Assembly: GCF_000764305.2 (NCBI RefSeq)
Contig: NW_025931704.1
Coordinates: 62,001-126,000 of the forward strand
DNA: 64,000 bases
Source of the DNA: Hyalella azteca
Taxonomy: Eukaryota > Arthropoda > Malacostraca > Amphipoda > Hyalellidae
Reading direction: 5' to 3'
The notes under the pieces were generated by a model, which worked only from the letters and a program-made list of their open reading frames with translations, did not search any database and was not told the origin of the DNA. The position numbers were made by a program, and so were the translations under genes. Shown here one piece after another: positions 6,476 to 57,100 of this stretch; position 1 is the stretch's first letter, and each line of letters opens with the position of its first letter.

Positions 6476-6478
6476 NAA

Positions 6479-6497
6479 AGATGTGTATAAGAGACAG
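6479..6497 (+). other. Tn5 mosaic end (Nextera adapter) left in the assembly
   Basis: AGATGTGTATAAGAGACAG is an exact 19-base match to the hyperactive Tn5 mosaic end used in Nextera libraries. It starts three bases after an N at 6476 and follows an abruptly ended satellite. This is an artefact of library preparation, not a genomic element. Confidence 0.95.
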
Positions 6498-17098: not shown

Positions 17099-17263
17099 CT
17101 CAGATGCGGGGCCAAAGTAAGGAAAAGAACAATAAAACGATTCCTATCGTCACGTTCGGGAACCACCTCAGCATACTGTTTAGACAAGAATTTCATAATT
17201 TGAGTATACACCAACTGTGAAGGAAATCCATTCAGTGAGAACATACTGCGCAAATATTCAAAT

Positions 17264-17900: not shown

Positions 17901-17929
17901 ACAGCATTGCTGATCACTGTAGACTTAAC

Positions 17930-26189: not shown

Positions 26190-27119
26190 TCACACGGAAC
26201 TTTCTTTTTTAATGAAAGATTTCGGGCTTTTCTGTCCTCTTTGTTTACATAATAATTCAGGCGAAGCAATTTTAACGCTGCCTGAGCCCATTACGTTACT
26301 CGCGCCCCGCCATGAAGGTTTACCATCACTTATTTGTCTATTCTTAAGCCTGTCACACTTGAGCGTTTCGTCTACAGTGGCTCCACCCACCGACGAAATA
26401 TCTTGAGCAGTTTGAGGCATCACAAATGGAGGGGACGAGTTAGAAAACATGGGAGGTGGCGAGAAGAAAGTTTCGTTCTTACTGTACACTCTGCCGTCAA
26501 AATTAATATCTTCTTGCAGTGGAGGCAGATGATAAGATACTCCAATCTCAAGTGAATCTGTTAAACCATTAAAAGATTTTACTGTAGAAGGAACCGATGA
26601 ATTTATTGCATTATTTTCCGTCCTCTGAAATTCAACGGACTTCATAGCGGCACTTGAAGCCGATGAAAGAGCTGGAGTTTGGCTTTCAGGATCCTTCTTG
26701 TTTTGTCCGGTAGGCAAACTCGAGGCGGAAGATGGAGAGAAAGGCACCTCTTGAGTGTTGTCTTGCAGAGCAGGACTAAATCTGCCTTGCCTCCAGACCG
26801 CCATGTCCACCTGCTGATGTTTGAGTGGAACCTTCCGAGGTAATACTCCTTGACGGTCCTTTGATGACATGACCTCTTTATCTCGAGGGTCATCAGCCGT
26901 ATCGCTGATTGCAGACAAATGGCTCACAGCAGGACCATCAGACGAAACAGGATCTGCTTCGCTGGATCTCGTTAAATCCAAGTCCAAGAAAGCTGCTCGA
27001 GATCGTTCATCAATCTGGAGCAAACTGTGCATACTTGAGTGGGATTTTTGAGTCTGAGCACCACACACTCTGTGATGTTGGAATTGATCTGAGGTATAAT
27101 AACCCCGCGGAGTTTTGCC
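26190..27119 (-). CDS. side: side exon 15: last coding exon, cytoplasmic tail ending ESSV
   Basis: The acceptor is TATGCTCCACAG, in phase 0 from exon 14. It encodes 309 residues beginning GKTPRGYYTSDQF. The sequence is low in hydrophobic residues, rich in Ser and Pro, and probably disordered. Recognisable stretches include SRAAFLDLDLTRSSEADP and PPLQEDINFDGRVYSKNE. It ends KKESSV and a TGA at 26192-26190. The last residues fit the class I PDZ ligand pattern S/T-x-hydrophobic. A plus-strand open frame from 26,212 and others here are antisense shadows. Confidence 0.85.
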   Translation of the reverse strand, partial: GKTPRGYYTSDQFQHHRVCGAQTQKSHSSMHSLLQIDERSRAAFLDLDLTRSSEADPVSSDGPAVSHLSAISDTADDPRDKEVMSSKDRQGVLPRKVPLKHQQVDMAVWRQGRFSPALQDNTQEVPFSPSSASSLPTGQNKKDPESQTPALSSASSAAMKSVEFQRTENNAINSSVPSTVKSFNGLTDSLEIGVSYHLPPLQEDINFDGRVYSKNETFFSPPPMFSNSSPPFVMPQTAQDISSVGGATVDETLKCDRLKNRQISDGKPSWRGASNVMGSGSVKIASPELLCKQRGQKSPKSFIKKESSV

Positions 27120-30100
27120 CTGTGGAGCATAAAGAAAAACTGATAAATTGTTATGAAAAGACGCAAGGAATTGGAGAAAAATATTATGGATATCAAAAGA
27201 ATAAACCAGAATCGATTAGTGTTGCGGTATATTTTAATTTTTTTGTTATATTTCAGACAATAGAAAATGTGGCTTGGAAACAATAATCATAATAAGAAGG
27301 CTCACAGATCGAGGCAGGGATCCAATTCTGGTATGCTGAGCTGTGATGTCTTGATGTGGAGTGTTATGGTTGTAGAGGTTGTGATGGTGGTGGTGGTGGT
27401 GGTGGTGTTCGACATCCAGTAATGATAATTGGTTGAACGTGAGACTTGAGGACACAGCAGGGGCTCTCGGTGGGGTTGGCACTGTGGAGCATAGTACTTT
27501 CAAATTAGCAAAATTAAATTATTAAGAATCTTCCTAAATTAGCATTATGACGATGTCACCGCTAGATAAGCAATCTCTATTAAAAAGGCAGCTGCAATTC
27601 AATAAACCATATATTTCATAGCTAAGTAAGGTATAAAATAGATAATATATATGTACAAAGGTATTCCCCAAAGAGGACATTGCACTGTTTCCCATATTGT
27701 TCATGAACAACACACAATAAAATGTGTCCGTTTTGGTCTCTTGGCACGAAATTACAGAATGGGCATAGAGTAAATGGAAACTATAAAATTCTAATCAAAT
27801 TATCGAACCTGATGGCATCTGGATTCATTCATCTTACAAGTAATAAACTAATTCAAGCAATTTGACGAAAGATAATGGCGATAAAAGTAATTTATTCTGA
27901 ATTTCTTATATACTACTATTTACTAAAATAGTTTTAATCCATATACTACGTATTATACTAGTTATAATACATATACCATATATTATGCTAATTATAATAC
28001 ATATATCATGTATTATACTAGTTCTACTACTATCTATTATACTACTTATAATACATATACTATCTAATATACTAGTTCAGCTCACAATTAGTGTACGGGA
28101 TGACGTCAGGACTAGACCCTGCAGTGTCCAGGTAGGTGGTGTCTGAAGGCTCAGTTTGGTTGCTCATCGAAAAACCATCATTTTTTTCTCGGGTCGAATT
28201 CCGTCGAGGTTTTGTGCGTGACGATCGCCGGGCTTTGATGACCACCACGACCACCACGCACGACAGTAGCAGTGATACCACCGCTACCACCACGCCTGCT
28301 ACCAGCGGCGCCAGAGGACCGTAATGACATTAAACTCTCATATTAATATACTCTATGCATGCATTTCCTTGGCAACTATTTGCTGGTTTGGCAAACGCTG
28401 TTCAAACCTGAAAACGAATCAGTGATTCATAATCAACGAATACAAATATTAATTGATTGAACGCAATATTAATTAAAATCTATTGGTACCACTTTGATTA
28501 TTAAAAGATGTCTACTTCATTTACAATTATTTTCAGATGTATATGATCTTTTATGTATGAGCGTATTAAAGTAGAAATATTTACATCAAAATACGTAGAA
28601 AAAATTCCAAGATTGTTTCAAAACTAAAATTTTTTAAATAGAGCCACCAAATCTCAACTCGAACGAAGTGGCTGCCAACGAGCGATTTTATCCCTGAAAG
28701 TTGCGGTAATCTGCAGCGATTATGAGTTTTAACACGAAAGAATTGTCCAAACTTTTTAACGACTTCGAAGAGCAACGCCTCCTATTTTTTTGCGTTTTTA
28801 TTGGTCCCATCCTAGCTCCTACAATTTTTGTTCGGGATTGAGATGAAAGTTGCATCGTTTCAAAAATTGCGAAGCGGGAGGGCAACGCGATTGAAATACT
28901 TAAATAGCAATGCTCAAATTTGCGAAGAGTACAACTTCCATTATAAACTAATTGGAGACTCATAATTATTCTTCACTTAAAATCTGCTACTCGTATATAT
29001 TCTTGCATTCTATGAACAAATCTTCATCCATAAATCATTTATCATGAAAGCTAATGAATCAAACCATCATAGCAAAGCCTGCTCATTACTCACCCCCAAG
29101 ACTGGTTCTTTTCTGGGCCTTATCCTCGAGCGTCTCAAGCACAATGCGCACAGGAGCGCTACCACCACGCGCGTTCACGGCGGACACAGTGAGCGCATAC
29201 TCCTTGCCGGGGTCCAGCCCCGTGACCGAGAACTCAGCCTTCGGGGAACTCGAGGTGTTGGCCAGAACTCTGGGCGCCGAGCTGCTGGAGTTGGCGCTGG
29301 GGCTGGCGTCAGGCGGACTGTCTTGACTGACGGAAAGCGTGAAGGTCTGAGGTAGACCGCCGTCCCAGCCCGCCTGACACCGCACCGTTGCTGACGTGCG
29401 GCTCACTTCCGAGACTGAGCAGTTGTGCACAGGCTCTGGAACGGCTTTGAAACAATGCACTTCTTTGATGAAAAATTATCAAGTCGCAAATGTTTTGGGT
29501 GCAGTTGTAAGAATAAAGAAATGATTAGTAAGACTTTTACATAAGTGTGCACTAGCGTAGGAGTTTTAAGAGACTTCTGTGACAGATAGGCAACATAAAT
29601 TTTTCGTTTTGCACACCGTTTCGTGAAATAGCAGAAAATGAATAACAGCCACAAAGCTCTCCTATATTTTCTTCAATGTTTAACATATAATGAAAATATT
29701 CTTCTCAATGAGTGTCATTCTTGTCTTTGTCTTTATTTATGACCAACAAAATGGGTATTTGTGGCTTTGTTCTTGCTCCTGGGTATTAGTCTAGTTTGCC
29801 GCATAATTTACATAAAATTGCTCTTATGAATAGAAAATCATTGAAAAGAACGTAAGAGAACACACAATGCTTGAAATGATTGACTAAAATATCTTATTTT
29901 ACTAAACATATTCTCCATTACGATGCTACATTTCAGCACAAGTTCTGCTCACCGGTGTGTATGATGTGTTGCTATAAAGTTCAACACAAGTTCTGCTCAC
30001 CGGTGTGTATGATGTGTTGCTACAGTTCAACACAAGTTCTGCTCACCGGTGTGTATGATGTGTTGCTACAGTTCAAGACAAGTTCTGCTCACCGGTGTGT

Positions 30101-33100
30101 ATGATGTGTTGCTACAGTTCAAGACAAGTTATGCTCACCGGTGTGTATGATGTGATGCTACAGTTCAACACAAGTTCTGCTCACCGGTGTGTATGGTTGC
30201 TACAGTTCAACACAAGTTCTGCTCACCGGTGTGTATGATGTGTTGCTACAGTTGAAGACAAGTTCTGCTCACCGGTGTGTATGATATGGAAGACACAAGG
30301 CACCCTCTGCTGGCCGACAGCGTTGGTAGCCCAGCAGAGCAGTGAGCCGTAGTCGAGCTGTGAGCGAGGCGTGTAGGCCACGTCTCGCAGGTCTCCGCTC
30401 ACCGCTTCGATGCGGCCAGGGTCTATGGAGACCACCTCTGCTGACGTGTTAAATGCCCACCTGCACCGTGGTGGGGCGGTGGGTAATTAGGGCGATGTTG
30501 AGCTTAATTACATGAGATAAGTGCAGCAATAAGAACTGTTTTGCAGCTTAATTACATAAGATAAGTGCAGCAATAAGGGTTATGATGAACCTTAATTTCA
30601 TAGTATAGGTGGATCAATAAGGGCTATTGTTGAACCTTAATTACATAAGATAAGTGGAGTAATAAGGGCTATGTTGCACCTTAATGACATGAGATAAGTG
30701 CATCAATAAATCAATAAAGGCTATGATGAACCTTAATTACATAAGATAAATGGATCAATAAGGGTTATGTTGCACCTTAATTTCATAATATAAATGGATC
30801 AATAACGACTACGTTGAACCTTAATTCCATGGTATAAATGGATCAATAAGGGCTCTGTCAAGACAAGGCCATGCTGGAAGCGAGTCTACTTCGTCCCACT
30901 TAATTGCCTGGCATTTCGCTCCTTCGAACCTGGTGGATATTGCCGTTCATACAAGGCTTAATACGTATATCAAGTTTAACCGCCCATCTCTTGATGTTGG
31001 ATGTTGCCACAAAATACGCTTCCACTCACCTGAAGGATGTTGCTGCAGGATAAGCTTCCACTCACCTGAAGGATGTTGCTGTAGGATACGCTTCCACTCA
31101 CCTGAAGGATGTTGCCGCAGGATACGCTTCCACTCACCTGAAGGATGTTGCCGTAGGATACGCTTCCCCTCACCTGAAGGATGTTGCTGCAGGATACGCT
31201 TCCACTCACCTGAAGGATGTTGCAGCAGGATACACTTCCACTCACCTGAAGGATGTTGCCGCAGGATACACTTCCACTCACCTGAAGGATGTTGCCGCAG
31301 GATACACTTCCACTCACCTGAAGGATGTTGCAGCAGGATACACTTCCACTTCACCTGAAGGATGTTGCAGCAGGATACACTTCCACTCACCTGAAGGATG
31401 TTGCCGCAGGATATGCTTCTACTTCACAGGTGACGTTGAGTCGCTCGAGTTTGGCCGCTCCTTTGACGCTAGGTTCTCGTGTCCGACAGACCGGGGAATC
31501 TGACGAGTATAAAGCAATGGCCGTCAAGCAGCGTATGAATTGAAGCAATTAAGTATATGAAGCTTATGGATGGCAGCATATGAATTTATTGTTTGTATAT
31601 TAAATAATATTACGAATATTCATCTCATGCTCCTTTCTTTCGCAGGAAAGCAAATAAATATTCAGAAATTAAAGTTTCTGAAGCCAGTACGAGAAAGTGT
31701 GAACAATCATAAGATGTATATGCTCGTGTATATTTCCCTAAATTTAGCATTGTAAAGAAGCAATTAACATGTGAAGAATCTACTATAGATAAGGTCATTC
31801 CTCAGAAAAATGTGATAAAATTTAAATATATCATACGAACACCAAATGAGACTTTCAAACTTTAATATAAGTAAATTTCATTTTGCTAAATTGATTAAAT
31901 TGAAAGATATTGCTACTTCCGTCTTTTTGAAAAAGTGGAAAGAGCGTACCTTTCAAGGTACGGAAAGTTTCATTTAAATGCTGATATTTAATTGGTTGAC
32001 GTGATAGTGGATGTTGTGCAATGCATGAAACGATTGTCAGATGAATGGTGATTGGCAGTGGCATGATAACGCAACCTCAAACACAAACAGGGGGCGTGGT
32101 GGCATTTTTGGGAAGGGGGGGGGGGAATTTGAAGTGATCATATGTAGTCACTTATTAATATTGAATGATTGGTTTATATGTTAAAATCTTATGAATTTAT
32201 TTTTTGCTTTAATCTACTATTACTTGTTTGGACGGGCGTCTTCTTATTTATAGATTAAGATAAAACTTTCGTCTCACTCAAAAATTTTCATTTGCATTGA
32301 ATTCGTCACGGCTCAAATATTTATCGAAATAATTGCGGAAAACTACACAATTTCTGAAAATTAAAGATCTAATAATTTTATTCTTTTCCTACACGATTTT
32401 TAACCGAATTTTTAATTTAGCTATTCCACTCTACTCTTATGCTAGTTACTTATCTAAATCAGCCACCGGCTTTCATCACGCAGTATCGAACTCACGGAGC
32501 CTGTACTTGAGACTTAGATAGGGGCTTGTTGTTGCCGTAGAATTTTGTGAGCTTTCTTGATCTGGGCTCCCGTATTCCGAAGAGTTTAAACCTACTTTTA
32601 TCGAAAGTCAAAATGATCTCTACAAAGCAATCTGTATTGTAGAAAAGATGTTCAAAAAATAGCTATGCAAATATGTCGGCTAAACTTGAACCCAAAATCG
32701 ACAAATATTGGAAAACGATTTGGATTTAAAAGAACAGCGTGTCCACGCATTGCAATCATTGCTCTCTTAGGATATTTGAACAAAGCTAGGTAATTCTTAT
32801 CGGGACTAAATAAGTATTTGAGTTGAGCTTTTTATATTATGCTGTGAGTGAGTGCCTTGAACTCCTACAGCCTGAGGGAGATAGGACGCATGGAACGGCA
32901 GTGGCAGCGCGTTATAATTTATTATAACACACATTATTTGATAATTATAATTATACTATAATTATAATTCGCAAGGTGATTCATGACCAGCGATGTAACG
33001 CGTAACGTCTCACGGTGATTATAAACTATCATGACAATTATGAGGCACGGGAGCACATTGTCTCCCGCGGTGATCATAAACCATCATGACATTTTTGTGA

Positions 33101-36100
33101 CACAACAGCGCGCAGTATCGTGTGGTGAACATAAATCATCATGACAGTTATGAGGCATGACATCGCCCTGTCTGCCGGTGTGATCATAAACTGTCATCTT
33201 AGAGGTTTTAGGCCTCAAAAATAAAGTTTGTGATGTACGAGCGAGGAAGAAACTGCCCGCGATATGCCTTCCATTGAGCAGTGAGCAGAAACTTGGTCGC
33301 TATATCACCGGCCGACCCTCAGCCGAGGGCCGACAGTTGACGAGGGAAACGTTCCAGGTGAGGGAACAATGTTGTTTGCATAGCGTGTGTTATAGCTGCA
33401 ACGGAGAGAATGTGTGGGTACAGAGAAGTGACCGCAGTGTTAAAATATAAATTGATATAAACTATAATTAGCCTGCATTATGCCGATATACATGCGGATT
33501 TTTTCATGACTGGTATTTTGAATGATTCTAATGCGTATGTCGCGACATTCTTTATACTCTGTCGGGCCTTCATGTGAACTATTCATGTCTGCAATTAAAT
33601 AAAACTTTTATTTCGATATCAAATATATTGCAGCCTTGCAGGTCATTCATATGAATTTCCCGTGACTTTTTGGCGAAAACATTTCCAACGCCTAATATTT
33701 TAACGTATTTTATTGTACACTTTTCGTGTCCGATACTTGGAAGGGATCAATGTGGTCCTTTTATCCTTTTGATATTTAGGGACTGGATCGAGCCTCTCCA
33801 GGCCAGAGAGATGAAGCCCTTCACGTCCACTGCTCCTCAATATTGGCCTCTGGAGCCTCTCTTCACTTAAAGCCTCTCGCAAAAATAGACGATATTTTCT
33901 CGGCGATGCGTTGGGCTGATCTTGCATGGAGCGAAGCATCCTTAATACTAACATGTTCTTGTTGTTGCATCAACATAACGTACTGCAACACTATAACTTG
34001 GTCATGTTGCAGCATCAACATAACGTACTGCAACACTATAACCTGGTCCTGTTGTTGCATCAACATAACGTACTGCAACACTATAACACCTGGCTCTGTT
34101 GCTGCATCAACATAACGTACTGCAACACTATAACCTGGCTCTGTTGCTGCATCAACATAACGTACTGCAACACTATAACCTGGTACTGTTGCTGCAGCAA
34201 CATAACGTACTGCAACACTATAACCTGGCTCTGTTGCTGCATCAACATAACGTACTGCAACACTATAACCTGGTCCTGTTGTTGCGTCAACATAACGTTC
34301 TGCAACACTATAACCTGGTCCCGTTGTTACATCAACATTAGTACAGAATCTTATTATTTATTTAATCACATCCCAACGTAACTTGTAACTTCTGGAGGAT
34401 CTACTCATGCCTCGTGCCGATGTTCAAATATTAGGCGATCGGTTCCTTGGTCTGCTCGGAATAATCTTGCATTTTTCTAGGTTTTAACCCGACATTACTA
34501 AGAAAATAGCAAAGTATTTAGTGAACGAATTCGGAAAAATACACGACAAAAATTTGACTGCGCTACATGCACTGCAATAAAGCAAAACATTTGTGATGAC
34601 TATAATCAAGCTTCAGAGAATTTATATTAATCTAATTACAACGAGGCATATCAACCTGTATTATATTAATTGTGAAGTAGTGATTAAATTTAGCGCATGA
34701 CCATTTGGTATAACTTATTTCTTATACAGATTATCAAATTATGTTAATAGCCTTAAGCAAATTTTTGTCAAAGATTCGTATCAACAATTTTATAATAATT
34801 ATTACAGCAATTGATGATAACCTCAAATAATTTTTACTGCATAGTTATAATAATATAATTTTTAAATAAATGATATTATTGAAAAGATCTACTACCAATA
34901 ATACACTTAGTATTTACTTTCATCACTAATTATGCATAAACGTTAATGGGCTCAAGTACAAAAAATCACTCCGAGTAAAAGCCCCCGCCAATAAACGATT
35001 AAGCTTTGAATTAACCGTTAACATTTTATATGCTCGGAGAATAAACCGCTTTTTATATGTTTGTTAGCAGGAGCCTGGAGCCATAAATGCCCAAGGCGCG
35101 TGTTTCTAATGCCTCTGTGTCAGGATATTGCATAAAATTGAATTCATAATAAAAGAATTACAATAAATTCAAGCTTGTCCCACTCGCAATACATATCGCA
35201 CTTTTAAAACTGATCCCAATTGCGAAACATATCACAATCATGACACACATCCCACTCATGACACACATCCCACTCATGACTCACATTTGACGATCGTGAC
35301 TCACATTTGACGATCGTGACTCACATTTGACGATCATGACTCACATTTGACGATCATGTTGACAGGCTCGGAGTGTCCGAGTCCCAGGGCGTTGGCGGCA
35401 GCGCAGACGTAGGCGCCGGACGCCTGACGACGTAGGCGCTGAAGCACCAGCGACTGGTTGCTTAGGATGACGCCAGACGTGACGTTGTGGTGCAGTTCCT
35501 CACCCTAATACATACATGAATAATGCATTCACTTACATTGACTTGTCATAAATACTGATGTATGTAACAAGTGACGAAATATTTATTATGTAAATAATGA
35601 ATTTCATCAAAAGAGACCAGAAAATCCAGGAGACTCTGCTCAATTTGCTACTTTTTTGGAGGCCCCAAAGTATCAGTCTAACTGAAAATATTGAGAAATT
35701 TGAGAAACTATTAATTGAATAATAATTTTCAAAAAATAAGATGTGGACTTCAGACTGTTGTGGAAGAAAGTGGACTTCAGACTGTTGTGGATGAAAGTGG
35801 ACTTCGGTTTGTTTTATACATACTTTCAAGTTTTAACAAGCGATTGCCAGCGCATGCATTCCACGCAAAATAACCACAACAGGTGCTCCTGCCATACGCT
35901 CAATGATTTTCATCTGGTATCCCTGATCATTGGTAAATATTTTCTAGAGAGAGAGAGCGAGAGAAGAGAGAGAGAGAGAGAGAGCATGCAGTGCAAGAGC
36001 CGAGTCCTATTTTATCTCTCGCCGCTACATGTGAGCAATATTCTCGCTCATGAATGTTACTCTAGCTTCTATGATGGAGTTCCATGCCTGTGCATAAGGT

Positions 36101-39100
36101 GTGGTCAGCAGAGCTGGCTTATAAGCTATGCATGACATAACTGCTTCTGTGTTCCACTGCAGGTGGATAATTCAAAGTCACGAGGTAATCTCTTGTATTT
36201 ATTGCAGCTTCCGCCTAACTGCAATCGCTTTACCGTATTTACGTTTTTGCATCGCTGGGAAATAAACAACGGAAAAACAAATAACTTATCTTGCTAGAAG
36301 AGTCTTATAAGGTATTATTTTTGTTTTATATAATGAAGTTATTATGTAATTGGTAAACGACTATCGTTTGTGAAAGATTAAATGTTGGATGCCTGTGAAA
36401 AGTGTAAATGGCTCGAACCTGCGTATGAATGTTCTATAAAAATCGCTGCAACGGAAATAAAACGAAAATATTGTTGAGTAGTGCCGCAGCTGTGCAAAAA
36501 TTACGCAAAACAATCATTAATAGAGTCGTTTCATTTATATACAATTTACTTCTGCTGAATGAAGACAGAACTGAGGCTTGATGGACTTTAATGTTAACGC
36601 AAAAAAATAACGTTTGATATTTCCCTGATTTTCATTTTACAATTTGATCTCACAACTTCCCTTCCAAACGCGATATCAAAAAATGGATTTTAATATCGGA
36701 CAGGACACGCTGCCGACGCGGAACATTTGCGGACACGGAACTCTGTGTGAATTTATCGGCTCGTAAAGTCGAGATGCGGATGATGGAGATCATCGATGCC
36801 TTCATGACTCATCGTCCACCAGGAAACGTAAAAAAAATCAAACATTTCCGGACTAGTGAAAAAAAACGAATTTTATTTATAGATGTGTAAATACTTACAG
36901 AACGTTTGATCTTACAATACAGAACGGATCAAATAATAATTTTTTAATACAGCTGGTTGCCAGGAGGGAAAAACTAGGGTTCCAGTTGTGATTTTCCTGT
37001 TATGCAACCAAGCAGAGTTAAATTTTGTATCGAGTTTTCACTGGGATAAGTGAGTCATTTTAGATCATTTTTACAATAGTTATAAGATTGAGTAAACGCA
37101 AGAATTTCTTTAGATAGTGAAACAAAAATTTCGAACCTAAGTTTTCGATTTTTTGCTGTTGTAAATAATCTTACGTCAATTTCATCACGTTGATTAAATA
37201 TTTTATTTGTAATGTATTGTGGTGGCTTAAGTATTGAAAAATGTAATGTATTGCGGTGGCTTGAGTATTGCTAAAATGTAATTTATTTCTGTGGCTTAAG
37301 TATGGCGAAAATATAATGTATTGTGGTGGCTTAAGTATTGAAAAAATGTAATATACTGCGGTGGCTAAAGTATTGAAAAAGGTAATGCATTGAGGTGGCT
37401 TAAGTATTGCGAAAATGTAATGCGTTGCGGTGGCTTAAGTATTGCGAAATGTAATGTATTGCGGTGGCTTGAATATTGCAAAAATATAATATATTTCGAT
37501 GGCATGAGTATTGCAAAAATATAGTATATTTCGGTGGCTGGCTTGAGTATTGCGAAAATGTAATCCATTGCGGTGGCTAAAGTAGTATTCGGCTCGTCAT
37601 GCCTGCTCCCCGCTGGCTTCGTTGACGCTCCGATCGAAGAGACTAGACAAAGTTGTGCAGGAATGTATGTTCAGACTTGTGGTGGTTATTTGAAAAGATC
37701 TGATAAAACAACAGCTTTCAGGTCTCATGTACACAAGTCGAGAAATTACAGGCCAAACTCGGCGACAGGCCAAACTAAACTTATTCTTCTGCCCTGATTC
37801 TACTATAAGATACTATGTTATAGTAATATAATCTTAACTTGCTAATTATTGAAGATATCCCTTGATAATATAGCACTCACGTTGTGAAGCCAGGACACTT
37901 TGAAGGACTTTGGGTTGGCAGAAATGTCGCACTCGAAGTAAACGTCAGAAAGTTACTTAGGTAAAGATTTAAATTTTTTTGTTCTTAATTCCGTGTCATT
38001 TCGAAAATCATGTCAGTAGAAAATTACCTAGTAAAAATATCTTAATTAAGGTTCTGGTTCTGGCCAGACAGGAGCCGCAGTGTAGATAGCTCAGCGCTGT
38101 AAGACGTTATTTAAATCAAGACTATAATTACTTGGCTCAGTAATTTTGTCGCGTAGAGCAAAAATATGGACAGGAGATTATGTCGTTTTTGAGTTTAGAA
38201 TTCTAACCAGACTTCACTGTGCACCTTGTAGCCTCTTGGGAATGGAAGGGAAAGTGGTGATGTGTTTATTTAAAATTATAAGTCTTGAATGATGAATAAA
38301 TAATTTAAATGCTCTGAGGTTGATGTTCAGGCATGAAACATCGCTGTGCCTACACACGCACGTATCAGCAAACCACATTAAAAAGATATTCTATCTTCCG
38401 AAATCGTATTAAATTTTATCAATAATAACAATCTGAGAAAATTTTCATCACAAGAACAGATGCCTTAATGTTGAATATTGGATTTGACAGAACTGGGGCC
38501 ATCCTTTCAAAACTCGCTAAGTGAACGTAAGTACTTATTACTATTACCAATCATAGACAAGTACTATTTTCTTGTCTATGATTGGTAGATCTGGCTTGAA
38601 AGCCCGTCAATGATTGGCGGATGAACTTACGATCTCTTAACTTTTTTTGAAAGTATAGGCCCTGGATACTCACAGTGCACTGTGATAGATCCATGATCCT
38701 CCAGATCTTTGTGATCCAGCCTGGAGTTCCGAGCTTTGCACGTCACCACAGCGCCCTCGTCTGACAACTGCGGCGTGATCGTCAGAGTTGCGCGAGTGAC
38801 GTTACCGTCATCGAAATTCTGGGATTCAAAATCATTATTTTACAAGAGATATATCATTTTTTGTTCTTTATGGCTGAATTTTCTTAAAGAAAGTGTTATT
38901 TACTGTTTTTAGACTTGTATAAATAATTTTCAAAGAGATATATTATTTTTTATTCATTATGACTGAATATCCTTCAAAGAAGTATTATTTATTGTTTTTA
39001 GAATTGTATAAATAATTTACTTGTGTACGAAATTTTTTCATTATGACTGAATTTCCTTGAAGAAAGTATCTAATAATGTTTTTAGAATTGTATAAATAAT

Positions 39101-42100
39101 TTACATGTGTACGAGAGTATACACCTGGTTGACGACTAGGTTGGTAGCATCAGCAGAGTGGTGGAGGGGTGCGTCATCCCACCACCATGTTATGGTAGCG
39201 GGTGGTCGCGAACCAACGCTCTCGCACTCCAGGGTGGTGGCCACCCCCTCAACCAGGGGGGACGATAAACCTTTCATCTCAACCCGCAGCGGCGTTACTG
39301 CAAATTAAATAAATTATATATAAATAATAAAACAATAAATATATTTATGTAAAAAATACAATAACAATAAATTAATCATAAATACAATAAACCAATTAAC
39401 AATAACATAACACAACACAATTATAATTATGAATAGAATAACAAATAATTATGAACAACAAATGTATATGAATAACAAATTATATAATTATGAATAAAAA
39501 TTAATCATAAATACAATAAATATATTTATGTGAAAAATGACTCCTCATTGGCCCACAAAATCGTATGTAATAACATTTCCTTATCAGAGCACCGACTATT
39601 AAAAGAACCAACAAACGGTTGCATTCAAAAGATAAACTCTGGGAAAACAAAAAAAATTCTTAGTTTTCAAATCCTGAAAGGTTATCAATGCGTTCATGAT
39701 TTTTGAAATAATTAAATGCTGTTGTATTCAATTTTGTTAAATTTAGGTCTTGCTAAAATCCTTTCATTAAAGAATAAAATATGATTTAAGGTTATAATTG
39801 TGCTTACTGAGGCCTTTGCAGTCCATTTTGTAGGCAATGCATCACATCAAATTGCAAATTTAAAATTTTTTTAATGCTTCAAAAAGTACTTCCCAACATC
39901 ACCATATTCAATTGCCGACTCCAACTCACACTCCACAGCAACACTATTCTTTACATTACAGCCTCCACTTACGTTGATGGTTTACTATAAATTCCAAGCG
40001 GAATTAACAACAGATATTTTATCAATATCAGATATTTTCTCAATATCCATGACAATACATTCCACTAAACTAATTAAAACAAGTACTGATTGCTAAGAAA
40101 CTTGTAAGGAACCAAAATAAGTCATAATTTCTTCAAATGAATTATCAATCTTAAATTACTTTTTGATGCATTGTTCACTCGAGGTTATTAAAATCATTCC
40201 TTCGTATTGACATTTACAAACTTTTGTTTCAATTTTATCAGCTGGAATTTTATCAAAGTGATCACTACATAAATTATGAAATTATTAATCGTAATCGAAT
40301 TTTGTATTAAACTTCATAATTAAGGCGCTTATTATCGAAGTAATTCAAAGTACCTTAATTACTGCAAAAATAATTTACTTCACTTAACAGCTGCGATGGT
40401 TCGCACTGCATCATTTAACAAAGCAACCATTCCGTTAACAGTGAAACAAATCACGATGGCGTGCGTGTGCCGGAAGCAAGACGGTCATTTATTTCTACGT
40501 AGAATTTTACGAGGTGTTCGAAAAGACGCGCGCGAGGTGGCGTGCGCCAGTGAACTTAAATCGATGGAGTAAAGTAGGAACGCGTACTTAATATATGAGA
40601 GCGCAGCACGAAGAGTGAATTGGTATGGAGCATGTAAAAGAGTTATGAATGATGGTAGTAAGTCTGCCAGCTGATCGTGTGAGAGAGCGGCACGAAGGGT
40701 GGCTTGGTATGGTGCATGTAAAAGAGTTATGAATGATGGTAGTAAGTCTGCCAGCTGATCGTGTGACAGCAGTTGTAAGCGGAGGTGACTTGGTATGGAG
40801 CAGGTAAGAGAGTTATGAATGATGGTAGTAAGTCTGCCAGTTGATCGTGTGACAGCTGTTGTAAGAGGAGGTGACTTGGTGGGGTGCAGGTAAGAGAGTT
40901 ATGGATGATGGTAGTAAGTCTGCCAGCTGATCGTGTGTCAGCAGTTGAATAATTGCAGTATATCAAGCTGCAGTCATTTTAAACCATGAATGCAGAATGG
41001 GATCGTACAGTTCTCTGATGAATAATGTTGGGTTCAAGCTAGAGTGTGAAATTCAGTGGATGGCATAAACGGGACCGACAAAAATTGATGAAGGTAAGAA
41101 AGATGCAAGGCGATCACCATTGGAAATTTGAATTACATGATAATGAAATGGCTGAAAATTGATTTCGTGTATCAAGAAATGAGAGGAAAAGTTTTCGGAA
41201 GTTTATAGTTCAGCAACTAAATGCTGAAGGCGAATTATCGTGGAATTAAAGTAAGTTCATGAGGATTAGTTGACGACAAACCTTGATATTAAAGCGGGAT
41301 CTGTCAAAAATTGGATTATTTTTAAGATAGAGCAGCGCAGAGAACAAATTTACTGTAAGGATGCCGATAAAATGAATTTTACGGCAAAGAAAATGATACG
41401 ACACTATTCCATTTTTCCGCAAAGGCCAGCGACGTTATCTAGCACTCGGTTAGCTGGTTCAATGGTAAATCAGCCAGAAGCTCAGAATTATCTGATTAAG
41501 CCGTCAAACCAACCAAGAAGCACTCAGGTAGCCGGTCCAAGGATGAAATCAATAATAGAACACAGAACTAAATGGCTCAAGCGTAACGCAAATGACAAAA
41601 TGAAAGACAGATCACCATAGCTCAAGCGTAACGCAAATGACAAAATGAAAGACAGATCACGCACACGTTATGTCGATCAGCACTGACGCGGAGAGAGGTT
41701 CAGTGGTGTTGGTGTTCAGTGCTTGGCACATAACTTCAGACTTCAGGTCTCGGCGAGCCAGGCTCGGCAAGTCAAGGCTGGTACTTGACACTTCACCCTT
41801 ACGTGAGGTGCCACTTGAGGGAACTGGTACGCCCCGGTACCACCAACTTACCGCCGGGTAAGGGATACCTTCAAGTTAACAATTAATCTTGATTAAAACA
41901 CGTAACGTAAGATGAACATTTTGTGTTAATTACTTCTATAGTTAGAATATTGTCAATGAGCTAATTGTTGTTAATTTATTAATACGCATACTGTGGCAAT
42001 ATTCGTATTTTGCAAATAGGATAATGGCTGTCAGTGAAAATTTGTTTCCCATAAATCGAGTCTACATACGAGCAGTGTTAACATAAACTCAAGCAAGAAA

Positions 42101-45100: not shown

Positions 45101-48100
45101 AAATCAGAAAATTAGGCCTTCATATTTAAGTAATTAACGCGCTTCACTTGGGGCATATAAAGCAATCATCAACACGTACGCATCATCAACACGTACGCAT
45201 CATCAACACGTACGCATCATCAACACGTACGCATCACAAGCATATGATTTTGCAAGAGGTCAGTAAAAATGGCGACTGTGCCATCTATAGCCCTAACTTC
45301 TCTGAAAATATTATACTGACTAAAATTAAAGACTTTCTAGTCATACCTAGTATAGATGACCCATGTATACTTATATGGTCGACAATAATTAATATCCGTG
45401 CATAGTATAATGTACTAAATTATAGTATTTAGTAGTACAGTTATAGTGACTCGTGTATGTTGCCCGTACCTCCCTAGACCGGCACCCGGGGCCGTTGGGC
45501 GGACTTCGATCTCTACAAAAAGTTTACGGAATTTTTCAAAATATCCAATGGCAAAAAAATCTATTTTAAGGCAGAAAATTCGAAGGAGCAGAAATTATTC
45601 GACATTTTAACAATCGACTCTGTACAAAAAGTAATTTCTAGCGAAACAATCTGAACAGAAGACGGATATTTCCTTCCAAAATTCTTGTTTGGCGCAATTT
45701 TATCCATGACTAAAAACTAAACCCTTTAGAATGACTTTCCATGCCATCGATTCTGAGTTAAATGGAGTTCATTACATCCAGCGCATGCACGAAATGTCAT
45801 ACTTTTTTTTAGCTAATCAAATTTTAGCGAGTAAATAATAACTGTAGAAATAATTAAAGTTTAATTTTTCGTCTTAAAAACATGGAAATTAATTGCATCC
45901 TATTTTTGTATAAAAACTCTTTAATAATCTGAAATGAAAGAGGTTCACTAAGGGAAAAAATATCCTGATAGCAGAGGTACATGCCAAGTATTTGGCTAGA
46001 ATTTGACCGAAAATAATTTATTCATCACCGTCTTCACTTTATCAAAGAAATAAACTTTACATACTTTGATAAAATGTTCTCATTTTGCGAGCTGGAAATG
46101 CGTCGTCAGAAAAAATTTGCAATTTGCAAATGTAATATTATCCCTTTTTTCAGTGAGTGGACTTGAATCGCCGGAAATTTTGAATTTTCTCAATATCAAT
46201 GTATAAAAAAAACCACGAAAAGGTCGGTTCATAACGCTCGAAAGGAAGAGTGGCATTTTATTTGCCTACAAAATGACCGCAATCCCATATATTTAAAACA
46301 TTAAAATGAAGTCACATCTCATCCACTATTACTACCGTACGAGTTCCACCTGAAATAAGAGCGTGCAATAAAAAAGGCTGATTTGTAATCCCTGTCGGGC
46401 GGAGTTCATAAACATCCGGGACTTTTCGGCGATTAAAGGTCGAAAATATGTAGAGTTTAAGAGCGTTTCGGTGAGGACGATAGTTGAGCTGAAAGACGTA
46501 CACTGGCAGGTAGTAAACCAAGCTATAGAAATGAAGGTAAGGTTCCATTGGTATAGTACTTGAATTTAGTACTGTGTTATGGCTACTCCGAAACTTTTAA
46601 GCTTTATAAACAATAGAAATGCGTAATTGTCTTGTGCTTATGGATTAACAAATTAAAGATTAGACAAACGCGCCTATTCTATTCAGAATTTGATAAATCA
46701 ACTTACCCATACAATTTATCAACGTGAATTACGAAATAAAGTCCAAATAGCGGGAAACTTAAGCAGTTATTAATTCGCATTGCCCAAGTCCAGAAGCTCG
46801 CTTTGACTTCACTTATTACAAAGTCTCATTTGACTCTTGCCTACTTTCTCTTCTATCCTAGATTTACTTTTATCCTCTTATCGTTCGGGACACTTTACAT
46901 GTATTTTTCATTCATTCTGCATATATTTCCAACAAGTATTCCATACATTCTAATTGAATTTTGCCATTTAAAAAACATTTTTCTTTCACTCATGCTACTA
47001 CTCGTACTTGTACATATTTGTCAAATTTGTGTCATGAAGCCTTGCAGTGTATAGAGTCAGTTAGGGAGCGTAACTAGGATACTTAATGTGTGTGGAATTA
47101 CGTGGTAGCTTTTTTAAATGATAGACTTCAAGGGTAGAACAAATGGATGGAAGAGTTTTTTTGAAGCGTGATATTACTTCGACAAGCGATCGTTCCATTC
47201 AGACATAGAAAGTTAAAATCCCGGGATGGAAGGGCTGGGGATGACGGGATTTACAATAACGGGATTTGCAATAACGGGATTTGTAATAATGGGATTCTTA
47301 AATTACGCAGGTATGCTGACAACATCAGCATACCTGCGAGTTTTATTCTATTTACTAGTTTTCTAGTTATTTTTCATAGCATTTCCCATAGACATTATAT
47401 TCACTGCCGTGAAGTTCTCAAATATTTATATGTGACAACAAAAGATCGGATTAAAAATTACAATTTAATTTATATTATTGTATAAAGTTAAGTTAAAAGT
47501 CGCAAAATTGTTGTCTCCCACTTTTGAAACTCAAGTCGAATGGCCGTACACTCAATGTCCTGTGTAGAATGAAGGCTTGAACCGGGTTTTCTAGTGTACA
47601 TTAGATCTAACACTGAAATGAAAGAATTCTCAATGAATGATTTCTAAAATTTCTACGATTAACTATATCGCTTAACCCCGGGCTAACGTGATAATTTTCT
47701 TATTAAGAACAACCTGAAATTTCGGAAGTTGCAGGAGAAAACATCTTTGAATGAGGGATATTATTATAATTGAATTTTTTAGATTAGAGAAACAATCTTT
47801 TGATACAATGATTCCCTAATGATAACGAATATTGTCTGCCTACAAGATCTAATTAAAAAAATCAACTCTTATCTTACGCTGCCTTTTCCTCGGTTAATTG
47901 GAGTGAACTCGAAACCCGGAAGAATTCGTCTATAAAATCTGACACGAGTGAGGTGCTTTTTAACGAGGCTAGTCTCTGCGAATGGTGTCGTCTGAACTGA
48001 GCGGGAAAGTCGTAACTGCAACGACTTCAGCGAGTCGGGCACTTACTGAAGTGGTGGGGGAATGCGGCTCTTCTTTAGGAGAGTGGCTACTTGAAATGCA

Positions 48101-51100
48101 ATACTTCCTGGAGTAAAGTTAATAGGCCTGTAAGCTAATAATGTTGATGAACTGTCTTGCTTAACCCTCTTTATACCACCGTATGTCACTCTCCGGGAAC
48201 ATAACTTTCAACTTAAATTATACGTAAACTATTGGGTGTAGCAACCTGAGGACGTTTGTACGCAACAGAGAAGATTTTAAAGTTGTACGTGGCGGCAACC
48301 ATTTTGCGCTCACTAGAACGTATCCTTTTGGGAAGTTGGCTTGTGACAATATTGCTCCGGTTACTCGTGTCAGGCGGTAGAGGGTTAATATGAATGCTAG
48401 GATTATATTATGATTATTGATCGAAGTTTTTGTTGAAAAATGGTTACTCTTTGCCTACGAGTATGTCAAGAAACGCTTCATTTTCCGAAATTATGCATTA
48501 GCGATCATATGAATTTTGCAGCGAAAATAATTACTTGAAATTTTCGTGGCAGCCGATAAATTTGATGTGTAAATTCCGTGGTCGACGCCCTGACATGCAG
48601 TATTGGGCGGCAGCGCCGGCGAAATTTCTGCTTGGTTGGCATGGAAATAACTACATCGCCTCCATCAATAAGGTCATATGGTTGTTTTGGTGATAAAATG
48701 CATGGCGCGTTTAAAAATAATAATTTTTTCTGTCGCTTTAATTCTGTCGTTCTTCTGTTCGTTTTAATTTATGTAAAATTTAAACAAATTTGTCATTGAC
48801 GATCTGAACCTGAATATCGTGTGTCATTTTCACTTTCTTTCTGAACATCTTTTTGTTTGGGACTTCCTACACTTCATGGAAATAAAAAAAAAATCTTCTA
48901 TCAAAATACTAAGCGCACGATTCCACGAGCATCTAAACATCATATTATAAACTACCATCGTCAGCTATGTTCTTATCTAAACATCATATTATACGAACTA
49001 TGATCGTCAGCCATGGACGCCTTCCTCCTATCCTGTCATTAATCATTGAATGGAATGATAAATTATATTGCCCATGATATTGTTTCTTAGTAATTTACAT
49101 TTCTCGTTCCTTTAATGCTCGTGTTTTTCGCGCATTTTACTGCTTTAATATTATTTAAGTTAGTGTCAATTGTCATATTTTATATTTTTCATTTGGTTCA
49201 TTTTCACCCTATATGTTCCATAACCCAGCCTTGCAGGTATTATCCTCCCTTTATTTCATGCCTCTCCTTGTATTCCATAACCCAGCCTAGCAGGTATTAT
49301 CCTCCCTTTACTTCATGCCTCTCCTTGTATTCCATAACCCAGCCTTGCAGGTATTATTCTCCCTTTATTTCATGCCTCGACTAATATAACTAATGAAAGG
49401 TCATGTTCGACAGCCCTCAGGAATAGAATGATGCCCCCGCGAATGGTAGTTTCATGGTACACGAGCGCAGAGAAAAATACAGGCCAACTATGAACGGGAT
49501 ATTGCGTGGTAATCTTGCAGTGCAGCCTCGCATGCGTAAGTCTCATGGCTGCCTAATTGAATGGAAGTCGCGCAAACTATTTGGATGAAATCCAGATAGA
49601 GATGGAAGGCAAGCTGGCAGGCTGCCAGTCAAGCGCCTCCCACTCCATTCGGCCACTGGGCGCTAACGCCACTCAGGCTTTGCTTCAATCTGGGGTACGC
49701 TGGCGTCTCTTAGGTGTCATAACTTGACTACTGGAGCCTTGATTGCCTCTTAGGTGTCATAACTTGATTACATGAGCCTTGAACGTTACTAAGGTTAGTA
49801 TTGGTTACGTTACTATTGCGTACAGGAGCCTTGAGCATCTCTTAGGTGTCATAATTTGACTACTGGAGCCTTGAGCGTCTCTTAGGTGTCATAATTTGAT
49901 TACATGAGCCTTGAGCGTTACTAAGGTTACTGTTGGTTACGTTACTATTGACTACAGGAGTCATGAGCGTCTCTTAGGTGTCATAATTTGACTATTGAGC
50001 GTTTGATCATCTCTTAGAAGTCATAATTTGACTGCTGGAGCCTTGAGCGCCTCTTAGATCTCATAACTTGACTGTGTTTGATTGCATGGTGCAAAGGCGA
50101 CACTGATTGACTATGTGGGACTTGGATGCCACTGTCTGAATAATTATATATTACAATATACCGGAATTTACAAGAAAGTTTCAGTAACGAATGGATTGTA
50201 TGCAGCTGGAATGCAATCTTCACACTAGTTAAGCATAAAATTGAAGTTCATTAAAAATGTTGCAGTCCTTTTTATGAGCCAATAATAAAACATAATTCTA
50301 TCGATGAATCGAAAATGTTCTTTTATTAAATATTAGTTTTTGAATACGCGGAAAGCTAATCAAATTAAACTAAACTTGCACGATAGCCCATATCTATATT
50401 GATAGAAAATGGAGGCACAAATGCGTTTATAATTCAAATATGTTTAAATTCTTGCACCTTTCTTGCTATTAGAGCAATAAATCCATGAAATTTAATATCC
50501 TGAGTCGTTAAAAAAAATGTTTCGTATCGCAAAATTTCAGCAATCGTCGCCTCAGCAACGAAAACGTCGCGAAAAGTGGAGTGTCATTTCGATTCCTGAA
50601 TCGGGAATGCACGATTACTGATCGCGTTGCTGAAGTGGGAATCTGAGTGTAAGTGTAAATTGTTCTTCAACACCGAGGGTTTTTTATCACCTGGCCTGTT
50701 GAAAAAAGTTTGGCGGGCGCGAAACTCGAATATTCCGTGTAGCTGCAACAGTTTGCTTCCGAATTGAATGCTAACTTCAACAATTTTTGGTGCAACTGAA
50801 TCATCTAAATTGAAGTTAAACATTTGCAAAACAACAGTAGCTCATAACTTGCAAATGGTAGTCGACAATTCAGCAATTAAAGCAAAGGATCAGAGCTGCG
50901 TACTGATTTACAGTGTTAGTTTATTGCAATATTTCGATTTTAAAACAAGATTTTAATGCTTTACAAGCAAATAATAATATTGGTACGAATTTAAGTTCAA
51001 TTTTTCAATAAGGAACCAAAAAAATAATAGAAGACTAATAAAAAAATAGTTAGCCCACGACCACGCTGGTGAGTGGCTGTCATAAAAAAAATCCATGATG

Positions 51101-54100
51101 CTGGGTATCTAACCCGTGCCTCTTGCCACCATTTTAGCCCACCAGCATTGTTGTTTACTACACTTCTAGTATTATAAACTACTCCTACCATTTATACTAC
51201 TACTTCTACTAGAATAATTCAACACATGGCACTGTTCTACTCACCCACTATCGTCAGTTTGACGATCTTGTTTCTAGACCTGGAAGATCTGAAGTCAACT
51301 CTTAAACTACTCCTACCATTTATACTACTACTTCTACTAGAATAATTCAACACATGGCACTGCTCTACTCACCCACTATCGTCAGTTTGACGATCATGTT
51401 CCTAGACCTGGAAGATCTGAAGTCAACTCTTAAACTACTCCTACCATTTATACTACTACTTCTACTAGTATAATTCAACACATGGCACTGTTCTACTCAC
51501 CCACTATCGTCAGTTTGACGATCTTGTTCCTAGACCTGGAAGATCTGAAGTCAACTCTGCACCGATATAAACCTTCATCCGATAGCTGCACTGGGTTGAT
51601 CACCAAACTTGGAGGGTCGAAGTTTAAGTTGAAGTTTGCCCTCGTGCCCAAAGTTGTCGGATCTTGCCAGTGCGCCGAGTGGACTAAAGTTGATGTCCGG
51701 CCGTCCACACTAAAAAAACAATGTTAAAAAATACGTCACTGACTTTAAATTACTACAGTATAAGATAAGTACACAAAACCATTATTGAGGCACATACGAT
51801 TAATGACCAGAGAATGCATTATATTCCAATTTTTAGGAGGTCGAAAATTTTTTCGGATGAAGATAATAGATCATAAGGCAGGCCTCAGCAAGTAATTATA
51901 ATATATTTAACCCGCATCTATTGAGATTGGACTCCAGCATTTGTTTGCAAACTACCGGAACTGTTTGAACTTTGAGATGGTTTTCAGAGTCATTTTTGTT
52001 TCAATTTTTTCGTGTTGTATCTTATTTACGTGTATTGTGTACTTATGTCCACCAACATTTCATTGCTCAGTGCCTCTTGTAACTTGAAAACTTAGACCTG
52101 CATGCCTTTTGATCTATTGACGTCACCTGAAGAATTTTCCGACTCTGAAATTTGGAACATAATGCATTCGCTGGTCATTAAACTAGGCCGACCACTAGCC
52201 ACGTATTATTCTTCGCCCCTCGTTGACTTCACCTTTACCATGCCACCCGTCGTGAACTGACAGTTGAGTAATTTACGTTAATCGTACATGTTTCAAAAAG
52301 AAAATTCTGAAATCTAATGCTAATAGAAGCATTATTCTATATTCCAGAGGCACTTCTATATAATATATACACAGAAAAAATGCCTAAATCTCTCATTTTA
52401 ATTTTTCATTTAGAAGACAATTATGTAAGAAGAATGAATGCATTTCATGTCACGATTGCGCGTTATATTAAATAGTTGTTAATGAGCGTAAATTAAGAAC
52501 AAAGACCAATTCCCGTGGACTCTATAGTTTAGGGCAAATGAGCAACTCTTAACTTATGCGTGAATCAAGTATCGGAAACAAAATGCCATGAAATAGTAAA
52601 TTGATAGATTGAAAATGCTTTTTCTCTCAAAGAACTTTTTTATGCTCGTTATTTTCCGTTGGCAATTTTTATGAGAGTTTGTAGGTAATAAGTGAAAATT
52701 TATGTACCGTATCCTGCACCATCAATTCTGAAACTCAAGCCAATTTTTTTTGGCTTATATAATAAATCAGTTCAAAGCCAGTGCCATATTACCTGGGAAA
52801 TACCTAAGTGAGTTTGTGCTGGTGACGTATACTTAACTACCACTAAACCTCCCTTGTATCCTCTCATTTAAATGTTTTGTGTCCTACACGTATGTATGGG
52901 AGCACTGTGAACATATGAGGTCCAAGCAACATGCGTGATTGCAATCATGACGATCCCTCGTACGCAATAAATACATAAGATGAGGCAATACGTGAACAGA
53001 ATTTAGGCCTCACATGCAATATTCTTCGCTATGTCGGCAAGCGCCAAAAATTTGGCAAAACAAGCGACGACAAATATTGTCTACTTGTGACGAACACAGG
53101 CTGAGAGCGACGTCCCTATATAAGATGGCCGTTATCACGACATGTTGTTTTTTTCATGCCGATATGCTGATGTATGATGAGTCACTATGCTGATATATGG
53201 AAGTTCGATATGCTGATTTAGGAAGAGTCGTTATCCTGATACATGCATAGTAACTATGCTGATATATGGAGCGAATATGCTGATGTATGAAGAGTCAATA
53301 TGCTGATACATGTATAGTCACTATGCTGATATATGGAAGTTCAATATGCTGATTTAGGAATAGTCGATATGAGATTCGCCTGATTTCCTTATTATCTGTA
53401 GAGCTATTTTGTTCAAATTGATAGACCATGCGGCCCAGTCTTGCTTGCTTTTAAACTATGTTTTGGAGACTAATATCCCTGAATAAAAGTAAAAAATCTC
53501 AGTGCCAGCTAAATGCGACTAAAAATCCTTCTATATTTCAAATATTTTTGAACACCAAATATCGAGTCTTGAAAATCTCCCGGCAGCAGCAGAGACGCAG
53601 ATTCATTTATTGCAGCGCCCACGCGAGAAGTCGCTTCTTCGTAGCCAAGAGGCGCGAGGAGTTAGAGCCTGTCGATATATCGGTGATGACACTGCACTTT
53701 TTAGGGACGCAAGACAACAAAGATATCCAATTTTTATTTAATTTCTTCGCTGTTAACGAACTATGGCTTACAGATTAGATTATAGACAGAGACAGAGTTG
53801 AAACCTCGTGTTTAATTAGAACTAATCATTTTAATGCGGTGGATTTGGTTGGGCGATTTGGTCGTTCCCAAAGCTCGTCCTTGTCGCCCTTGTTTCAGGT
53901 GGTCTAAATGGTCCTGAGAATTCAACAAATCCTTTTGAATCGTCCTGAACAAACCTTGATATGAAAAATAATGCAACATTAACAAGGGAAAAAATTTTAA
54001 TTTTCGGTTATTGCGCTTCTACGAAGGTCACACAAACGGTATATCTTAGGCCAGACTAACATATTTTGAGGTCATACACGGCCTGCAAGTTGTTTGACGT

Positions 54101-57100
54101 TCCGAAGTAGCACTCAAACTTACGTTGATTGCCTAACTTTAAAAACATTCCTGTTATGTTGGCCTGGATATTTTTTGACGCTTATTGCAGAATCAAGACA
54201 AAGTTGGAGGCGCGCGTCTGGCAATGACTGTGCAAGTCTTCCAAACTCTTAGGGCTCTCTCAAAAATTTCTAATTAAAAAGTTGTCAAGAAGTTGTACAT
54301 GAAGCCAAATGTCGTTCAGGAGATTAACAATTCCTCCATCATAATTCTTGCGTAGATATGATGAACTTTTTCCTTTAACTCTTAGCAGCAAAATAAATGA
54401 TTATTATTGATGTCTGAGTGATGCAAAATTCTCAACGGAAGGCTTTTTTTATAAAGAATATATTCATTTGCATCATGATGAAGCTATTTATTGTTATTTC
54501 TCTGTCGTGAATACGTTCTCTGATATATATTTTCAAATGTCTCAAGCATTATTAATCGCTTGTGTATAATTAGCAAAAATTAGGATATTGTAATTGAAAG
54601 TTATGATTGAGTAAGCCATTTAACCATCAAGGCATGAATGGTTCCAAGTTATTCATAAGTAATTGCTACTTAATATAACTTGATTACTGATACTATTTTT
54701 ATCACATGTAGTAATCATGCGACACGTACAAGAACCTCGGTAATTAACGCAATGTAAAGCAAGCCAGGCTGCACCACAAACATCGAACACAAACTTCAAT
54801 GCTATTGCTACCTGCATCTCTCGCGAATATAATAACTGGTTTATCACCTCCATTATCACCTCCAAACATTGCTGAGAACATTTGCTGAGAACTTTATTCA
54901 TACTCTTAATAACTCAATTAGCGAGCGGCCAGAATAGCTGTTCAAAGTTACGAGCTAACAGAACTGCTCATAATTTCTCGTCTATACCAATTCCAACGTC
55001 TCTGCTTGTGAGTTTACAATATTTCTCTTATTCGGTTTAATTGAACTGCGGCAGCTTGTGTAGAATAGTTTTTAGAATATTTATTTGAACTTACTTGCGT
55101 CCTCCCAGTTCAGGTGTTCCTAGATATAAAACCTGGCTAGTGCACAACGCAGACAGGCTAACGCTGATTAGCTGTAGGATTGCAGCCACATAACTCCTGG
55201 AATAACCCCCGGAATAATTCACCGAGCGTCTGCACCTAAAAACTCCAGCGTTACAACCCCTTAGCCTTAATGCCCCCGAGGGGGCGAGGCGCGGGATCGC
55301 ACATCGACGCTGATTAATCACCCCACTTGGGGGGTGGGTGGTGATGTGATGGTGTGTGATGAGGGGGAGTGTGATTAACATGTGTATTGCGGAATCAATG
55401 ATCATGATAGCGCTGTGTGGTGAACATGTGATTTGAAATGATCATGATGGCGCTGTGTGGTGAACATGTGAGGTGAAATGATCATGATAGCGCTTTGTGG
55501 TGAACATGTGATTTGAAATTATCATGACAGCGCTGTGTGGTGAACATGTGAGAAGAAATGATCATGATAGTGCTGTGTGGTGTACATGTGATTTGAAATG
55601 ATCATGATGGCGCTGTGTGATGAACATGTGAGGTGAAATGATCATGATAGCGCTGTGTGGTGAACATGTGAGGTGGTATGGTGATGATAGCGCTTTGTGA
55701 TGAACATGTGAGGTGAAATGATCATGATATCGCTGTGTGGTGACCGCCACTCCCGTACCACTCACTCGCCTGTATATAGGAGTGCCGCCACTCCCGTACC
55801 ACTCACTCGCCTCTATATAGGAGTGCCGCCACTCCCGTACCACTCACTCGCCTGTATATAGGAGTACCGCCACTCCCGTACCACTCACTCGCCTGTATAT
55901 AGGAGTGCCGCCACTCCCGTACCACTCACTCGCCTGTATATAGGAGTGCCGCCACTCCCGTACCACTCACTCGCCTGTATATAGGAGTGCCGCTGTGGCC
56001 ACGGTAGAACAGCACCATGATGGTCTGGTCGTCGCGTCCGCCGTCCACAGCGCAGGGCAGCGCCGCGTTACCGCCGGCCACCGCCGTCACCTCCGCCACG
56101 GGGCCTGGGCAGGGCAGTACGGCAATACATTTTTTATCCATACGGCGTTGGTGATAAATGTGAGAACGTCCATAATCTTGTAATTAACAGTGCACAGATG
56201 ATTTAGGTCCAGAAAAGATATTAATGTGATTGTCCATAAACTTTAAACTGACAAAGAACAGAAAGAAAGACTGCATATAATTGTAACTGAATATGACTAT
56301 AATAGCAGAATGTACATTAATTTTGTAATTACTTCCAGCAGTCGAATACAGAACACAAAGAGAGGAGCTGCAAGTTTCAATGCTTAACACTAACTATTAT
56401 TAGCACTGAATTTCGTATTCTCATTTGAACCGTATTCTCAAACCCACGTTCAAAGGAATGTTTAGAAAGCCATTGCATTGCATGACCATTATTGCTAGAT
56501 GCCAAGATCGGACCTGTTGTCAAATTTTCTATTTGTTTTCTGCATAGCCATTAATTAAAGGAAAACGCTAAGAAGGCTCTTGACTTTATTTCTATAGCAA
56601 TTCCTTTAATTAGAGTCGGGCTCCTCTTCGTGTGATGACTTGCCTGGACAACAACAAAGGCGCAAACATCAGGAATTTCCTACGCTGTTTCTCTAGGACA
56701 TTATGCGTCAGTAATGAGGACTGACTTATAAAGGTTTATTATAATTTAAATAACTAATTGAAATGGAGACTGCAAACTTTTCTTTGACCTACGCATTGGC
56801 AGGAGTTAAAGTTTGCAGTTTTGAAGAGGAAATAGAGACCGCCATGACAACACACCTGCCTAAGGGCTAGAGTCTATAGTTAAAAGTTTATATGTTTTTT
56901 GAAGTATAACGTGAATATCGGTATCACTGCATTGTTAGGTATAACACATTTCATAATATAAGATTACCTATTTTTCACAATACATAATATGTTATTATTA
57001 GGTATCATTGACCTAAAGTTAAACGTTTGAACTCACATATTCAACTTGTTTGGCTTGAAGTGAACTCTGAAGCAACTACTACTCTGCAATTTCAATTAAA

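Follow-up and report, generated by a model that had tools for sequence, protein, structure and literature searches.

Mirage-like tandem arrays at exon borders of a Sidestep-family gene and other genes of the amphipod Hyalella azteca

In lancelets, minisatellite-like tandem duplications of exon/intron boundaries have been described as mirages; as far as the available parts of the reports go, they affect both 5' and 3' boundaries, the units in the genes cited being 10-160 bp long, and in the globin genes BflGb6 and BflGb9 the copies lie in the intron together with their splice signals (PMC3087553). Regular splicing is reportedly undisturbed by these arrays, which are unstable in length (PMC3087553). 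Further lancelet cases occur in Adh (Adh3) and troponin C, and repeats of PGBD5 have been likened to mirages in the accessible portion of a second report (PMC3902484). In human IFI6 (6-16), minisatellite units supply donor sites as the H. azteca arrays do, to judge from the title of the report, which concerns a single locus, unlike the arrays described here. The polyubiquitin gene UBC, with its tandem dual-specific splice sites, likewise holds a splice site in each repeat unit; according to the part of the source available, the UBC units are coding, in frame and variably spliced (PMC10809524), whereas the later donors of the H. azteca arrays give stops. Intron gain via AG/GT tandem duplication, as outlined in partly available sources, also duplicates a splice-competent stretch, but the H. 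azteca copies sit in existing introns and no new intron is shown.

The arrays described here share with lancelet mirages, as these are set out in the available text, the tandem duplication of exon/intron borders, the involvement of donors and acceptors, and intronic copies that carry splice signals. They differ in belonging to an arthropod, in occurring five times in one gene and in affecting about a tenth of the sampled borders. For the lancelet mirages there is evidence from RT-PCR, from haplotypes and from somatic instability, whereas the H. azteca arrays are known from one assembly. The original prediction proposed an undescribed phenomenon, which is contradicted by the same arrangement in lancelet in the accessible parts of two reports (PMC3087553, PMC3902484). 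No crustacean mirage was found among the titles and abstract starts searched, a partial coverage of the literature. The apparently new elements are the phylum and the frequency, about one in ten borders checked, the arrangement itself being already known from lancelet. We consider it probable that the five arrays are 'mirage' minisatellites, in which tandem duplication of a border-spanning stretch was followed by expansion, with the additional copies lying in the intron.

Donor arrays in a Sidestep-family gene

The window, by which we mean the whole 64,000-nucleotide stretch of H. azteca DNA that was analysed, carries a Sidestep-family gene on its minus strand (26193..56104, exons 2 to 14). 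The mitochondrial COX1 piece of the assembly shares 100% identity with three H. azteca proteins, further records of the species lying at 94-98%. Exons 3-5 resemble Protein Data Bank chains of Sidestep IV, VI and VII (best E 6e-14), and exons 9-13 resemble malacostracan homologues, the best of which is from Homarus americanus at 49% identity. Among nine exon pieces held to Pfam cut-offs, two passed for Ig and one for FN3; similarity to Sidestep proteins and the presence of Ig and FN3 domains are the features that place the gene in the family. The splice positions of exons 2-7 and of exons 9-13 yield an uninterrupted open frame across the joins within each block, while exon 14 (26193-27215, minus strand) is a putative exon with its open frame as the sole basis. 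For exon 8 (DVYFEC..., 37881-38673) no acceptor with an open frame was seen, and neither reading frames nor tblastn with 24 homologue pieces found its start or the short exon that precedes it in homologues. Assembly loss, an odd splice site or gene decay may account for the exon 8 problem.

Arrays were called with Tandem Repeats Finder and donor copies were counted in each, which confirmed the predicted copy numbers and unit lengths at five exon ends, all on the minus strand. The end of exon 2 with its donor is present in six copies of a 41-bp unit (55744..55993), that of exon 3 in three copies of a 128-bp unit (51175..51558), that of exon 9 in four copies of a 20-bp unit (35274..35358), that of exon 10 in 11 copies of a 36-bp unit (30999..31423) and that of exon 11 in eight copies of a 46-bp unit (29924..30285). 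In the frame-consistent model the real donors follow the last exon bases 55975, 51501, 35345, 31391 and 30273, respectively, all within the arrays. The donor of exon 2 (CAG/GCGAGT, six times present) was read as a GC donor because the GT four bases further on breaks the frame. Each unit of the five arrays holds an exon end and its donor. The first unit comprises 13-58 nt of exon, the remainder being intron, so the arrays start that far upstream within the exon and not, as had been proposed, at the genuine donor.

Other minus-strand arrays of the gene lie close to its borders. An 18/36-bp array adjoins the exon 9 donor array (35213-35286), a 45-bp unit in 1.9 identical copies begins at intron base 5 after exon 5 (41575..41660, donor after 41665), and three copies of a 54-bp unit begin at intron base 8 after exon 13 (27911..28078, donor after 28086). 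Intron 6 (306 bp) is made up nearly entirely of three copies of an 84-89-bp unit, which start at intron base 11 and reach to within 26 nt of the acceptor (38844..39114), as if the intron had been enlarged by tandem duplication. Arrays stop 11, 26 and 25 nt short of the acceptors of exons 6, 7 and 11. In the window as a whole, 49 merged tandem arrays with scores of at least 50 and periods of at least 10 take up 19.5% of the sequence. Each of its three Ns (2809, 4584 and 6476) immediately follows a tandem array, and the lengths of these three arrays may be assembly products. Two bases after the last of these single Ns (6476-6497) lies AGATGTGTATAAGAGACAG, which we take to be the transposase mosaic end of sequencing libraries; positions 6479-6497 are an adapter remnant in the assembly. 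Elsewhere in the window, minus-strand open frames at 16646-17924 resemble reverse transcriptase and GIY-YIG pieces of a Penelope-like retroelement; a Pfam search of these frames returned no match.

Arrays cover 19.9% of the gene span, and judged by coverage alone the evidence of the window is weak: 5/12 donors are covered where 2.3 are expected (P about 0.05), and 0/11 acceptors where 2.1 are expected (P about 0.09). When the first unit is required to span the border, 5/12 donors compare with 0.09 expected (P = 2e-8), in a gene that the reader had chosen for having many such arrays. A count devised post hoc, of array edges lying in the exon end or at most 12 nt from the border, gives 8/12 donors (0.8 expected) and 1/11 acceptors (0.7 expected). 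The claim that none of 14 acceptors is affected holds to the extent that none of the 11 testable acceptors is straddled; under a looser edge definition, arrays end near 3/11 exon 5' edges, compared with 8/11 exon 3' edges. At the rate found elsewhere, 0/11 acceptors has a probability of 0.32, and the lack of acceptor arrays in this gene is unremarkable.

Border arrays in Sidestep paralogues and myosin genes

Because the coverage evidence in the window is weak, the test was moved to other genes. Two gene families were sampled. The Sidestep paralogues comprised twenty 9.9-kb stretches with 58 exons, in which 54 donors and 51 acceptors were placed and four donors and seven acceptors dropped; the myosin sample comprised sixty short windows round myosin-head exons, covering 60 of 90 places. 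Borders were taken from a simple splice score and from match ends, the match end serving for myosin exons that had no scored splice site, a procedure that may favour strong donors inside arrays. In the paralogues, with positives checked by eye, arrays straddle 9/54 donors and 4/51 acceptors. Edge arrays in the myosins affect 13/60 exon 3' ends and 9/60 5' ends, the latter rising to 11/60 when the finder is run on the gene strand.

The strict count required the first unit to span the border with at least 8 nt on each side and removed arrays within 60 nt of an N. It found 12/114 donors (P 2.5e-8) and 11/111 acceptors (P 1.8e-7) against 1.4 expected each, the expectation being based on the count of deep arrays, 61 in 180 kb of paralogue noncoding DNA, and on how long their units are, and applied to the myosins too. 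Border arrays at donors and, mirrored, at acceptors are thus about eight times more frequent than under an even spread in the sampled noncoding DNA. With another choice of unit length and no N filter, 11/114 donors and 12/111 acceptors compare with 0.9 expected. Under the looser edge definition, control pseudo-edges in the same noncoding DNA were positive in 15/890 cases, and they have no clipping exon, so that the excess over them is overstated. These counts support the predicted process at exon-intron borders and extend it beyond the window gene. They are at odds with its restriction to one gene, since border-spanning arrays also occur round Sidestep paralogues and myosin exons, and to 5' splice sites, since acceptors carry mirror arrays about equally often.

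Individual cases illustrate both kinds of border. At L047 an exon end with its donor is repeated nearly five times, and at L044 at least four full copies of '...GTTGCAG/exon start' were seen by eye upstream of the real exon. Exon-start 20-mers were found again upstream in 7/8 myosin acceptor cases; in the eighth, L061, recurrence upstream was not confirmed. The acceptor pairs L014/L018 and L016/L019 are alike in sequence, and each pair may be one event. At homologous exon-3 donors the units differ (128, 53, 129, 74 and 23 bp), and the arrays therefore arose repeatedly. Two myosin exons, L059 and L068, have arrays at both edges simultaneously. Deep arrays show no GC enrichment over their flanks, GC being above the flank in 31/59 of them and in 17/38 in the window; the idea that GC-rich exons are a better substrate is therefore unsupported.

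The window gene (5/12 donors) exceeds the genes outside (12/114) with p = 0.011, a comparison that is not independent because the gene was picked for its many arrays. The chance of at least five arrays in a gene with 12 donors is 0.005 at the outside rate, and that of at least one such gene among 28, our own round number, is 0.14; for this reason the window gene need not be special.

Alternative explanations for the arrays

An array-rich genome could in principle decorate its borders by clipping, with arrays spread evenly through introns and cut by selection where they meet exons. Arrays do occupy 11% of noncoding paralogue DNA and nearly a fifth of the window, the five donors give only a borderline probability by coverage, and the pseudo-edge control inflates the excess for want of an exon. 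Clipping, however, cannot put exon sequence into every unit or extend the first unit across the border, and the spanning of borders by first units runs at about eight times the expectation. Array occupancy is also uneven: over 1-30, 31-200 and 701-1000 nt it amounts to 0.20, 0.31-0.36 and 0.12 after paralogue donors and to 0.11, 0.20-0.23 and 0.16 before paralogue acceptors, against a noncoding average of 0.11; in exon bases 30-99 nt inside the border it is 0.003-0.025. We therefore regard clipping as unlikely. An assembly artefact, in which short-read assembly of divergent haplotypes placed false duplicates of contig ends at exon edges or invented copies, appears distinctly unlikely. The adapter remnant and the single Ns at which three window arrays end speak for it, as do the outside cases L043, L059, L064 and L066 with only about two copies, the L043 array starting beside an N; with one assembly and single-N joins at some array ends, the copy numbers of long arrays are provisional. 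The five donor arrays, however, are free of Ns and contain substitutions among the copies in each, and the excess persists at no fewer than 2.9 copies with no N within 60 nt (11/114 donors and 6/111 acceptors, 0.6 expected each).

The original prediction had offered replication or repair errors linked to R-loops or to nascent-RNA structure at 5' splice sites, or selection for extra U1 binding sites, as causes; neither R-loops at donors nor U1 selection explains the arrays, because other genes and acceptors have them too, the acceptors about as often. A donor-specific process would suit the window gene, with its 5/12 donors and 0/11 acceptors, and most definitions outside it also give donors the higher figure, whether in the straddling arrays of the paralogues or under a uniform definition (3' ends 14/58 and 5' ends 6/58 in paralogues, 13/60 and 11/60 in myosins, 27/118 vs 17/118 together, p = 0.13). 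This donor excess is not significant (Fisher 1.0 in the strict count, 0.22 to 1.0 over six settings), mirror arrays stand at 11/111 acceptors and exon starts recur upstream in the myosin acceptor cases, which makes such a process very unlikely. Selection for U1 binding sites or alternative donors is the least probable account of all. In its favour, donor 9-mers of later copies differ from the majority at 4/243 positions and the rest at 38/960, but the difference does not reach significance (p = 0.11) and special conservation of these 9-mers is not shown; the same arrays occur at acceptors, and every later donor leads to a premature stop.

Splice-site copies and duplication at exon edges

Extending an exon to any one of the 27 later donors and joining it to the next exon introduces a premature stop in every case, at most 60 codons beyond the normal exon end, and because of this the later copies are best read, from their predicted translations, as inert decoys behind the first donor. 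Exon-derived and intron-derived parts of the copies have diverged equally (p = 0.64). The idea that the 36-bp unit lengthens exon 10 in frame as a coding repeat was rejected, a TGA standing directly past the first donor. Paralogue L021 has two donors with arrays, and its annotated H. azteca protein uses the first copy at each, although this annotation may itself be a prediction; another annotated protein, P0011, had no match above 90% identity among L009-L028. Judging by frame and stops, and by the L021 protein, the copy on the exon side forms the genuine exon edge and the others are intronic, as in mirages. Again as in mirages, both 5' and 3' boundaries are affected outside the window, with donors only in the window gene.

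Under the mirage reading, tandem duplications would start unusually often at exon edges. Selection would remove duplications inside exons, whereas a duplication that keeps the exon whole, next to its own closest splice site, would be tolerated because splicing would pair the sites flanking the real exon and ignore the outer copies. Copy number would then drift through slippage or unequal exchange. The enrichment at borders could partly reflect longer survival near exons and not more frequent birth.

The frequency of the arrays and their occurrence in a new phylum suggest hot spots of tandem duplication at exon edges. We give about even chances to the broader proposition that throughout the genome of this amphipod new tandem duplications arise at exon edges, both donors and acceptors, several times more often than in other noncoding DNA, with about a tenth of borders bearing rows of ignored decoys. 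If true, mutation would be biased according to exon structure, and the borders would form a natural experiment on splice choice among identical sites. If the frequency holds genome-wide, mirages would be a recurrent outcome in minisatellite-rich animal genomes and not a lancelet curiosity. Spliceosomal choice between identical sites lying side by side could then be tested in many natural cases. Mirages might also give rise to new introns and to errors in gene models, and would help in asking why tandem duplications would begin at exon edges.
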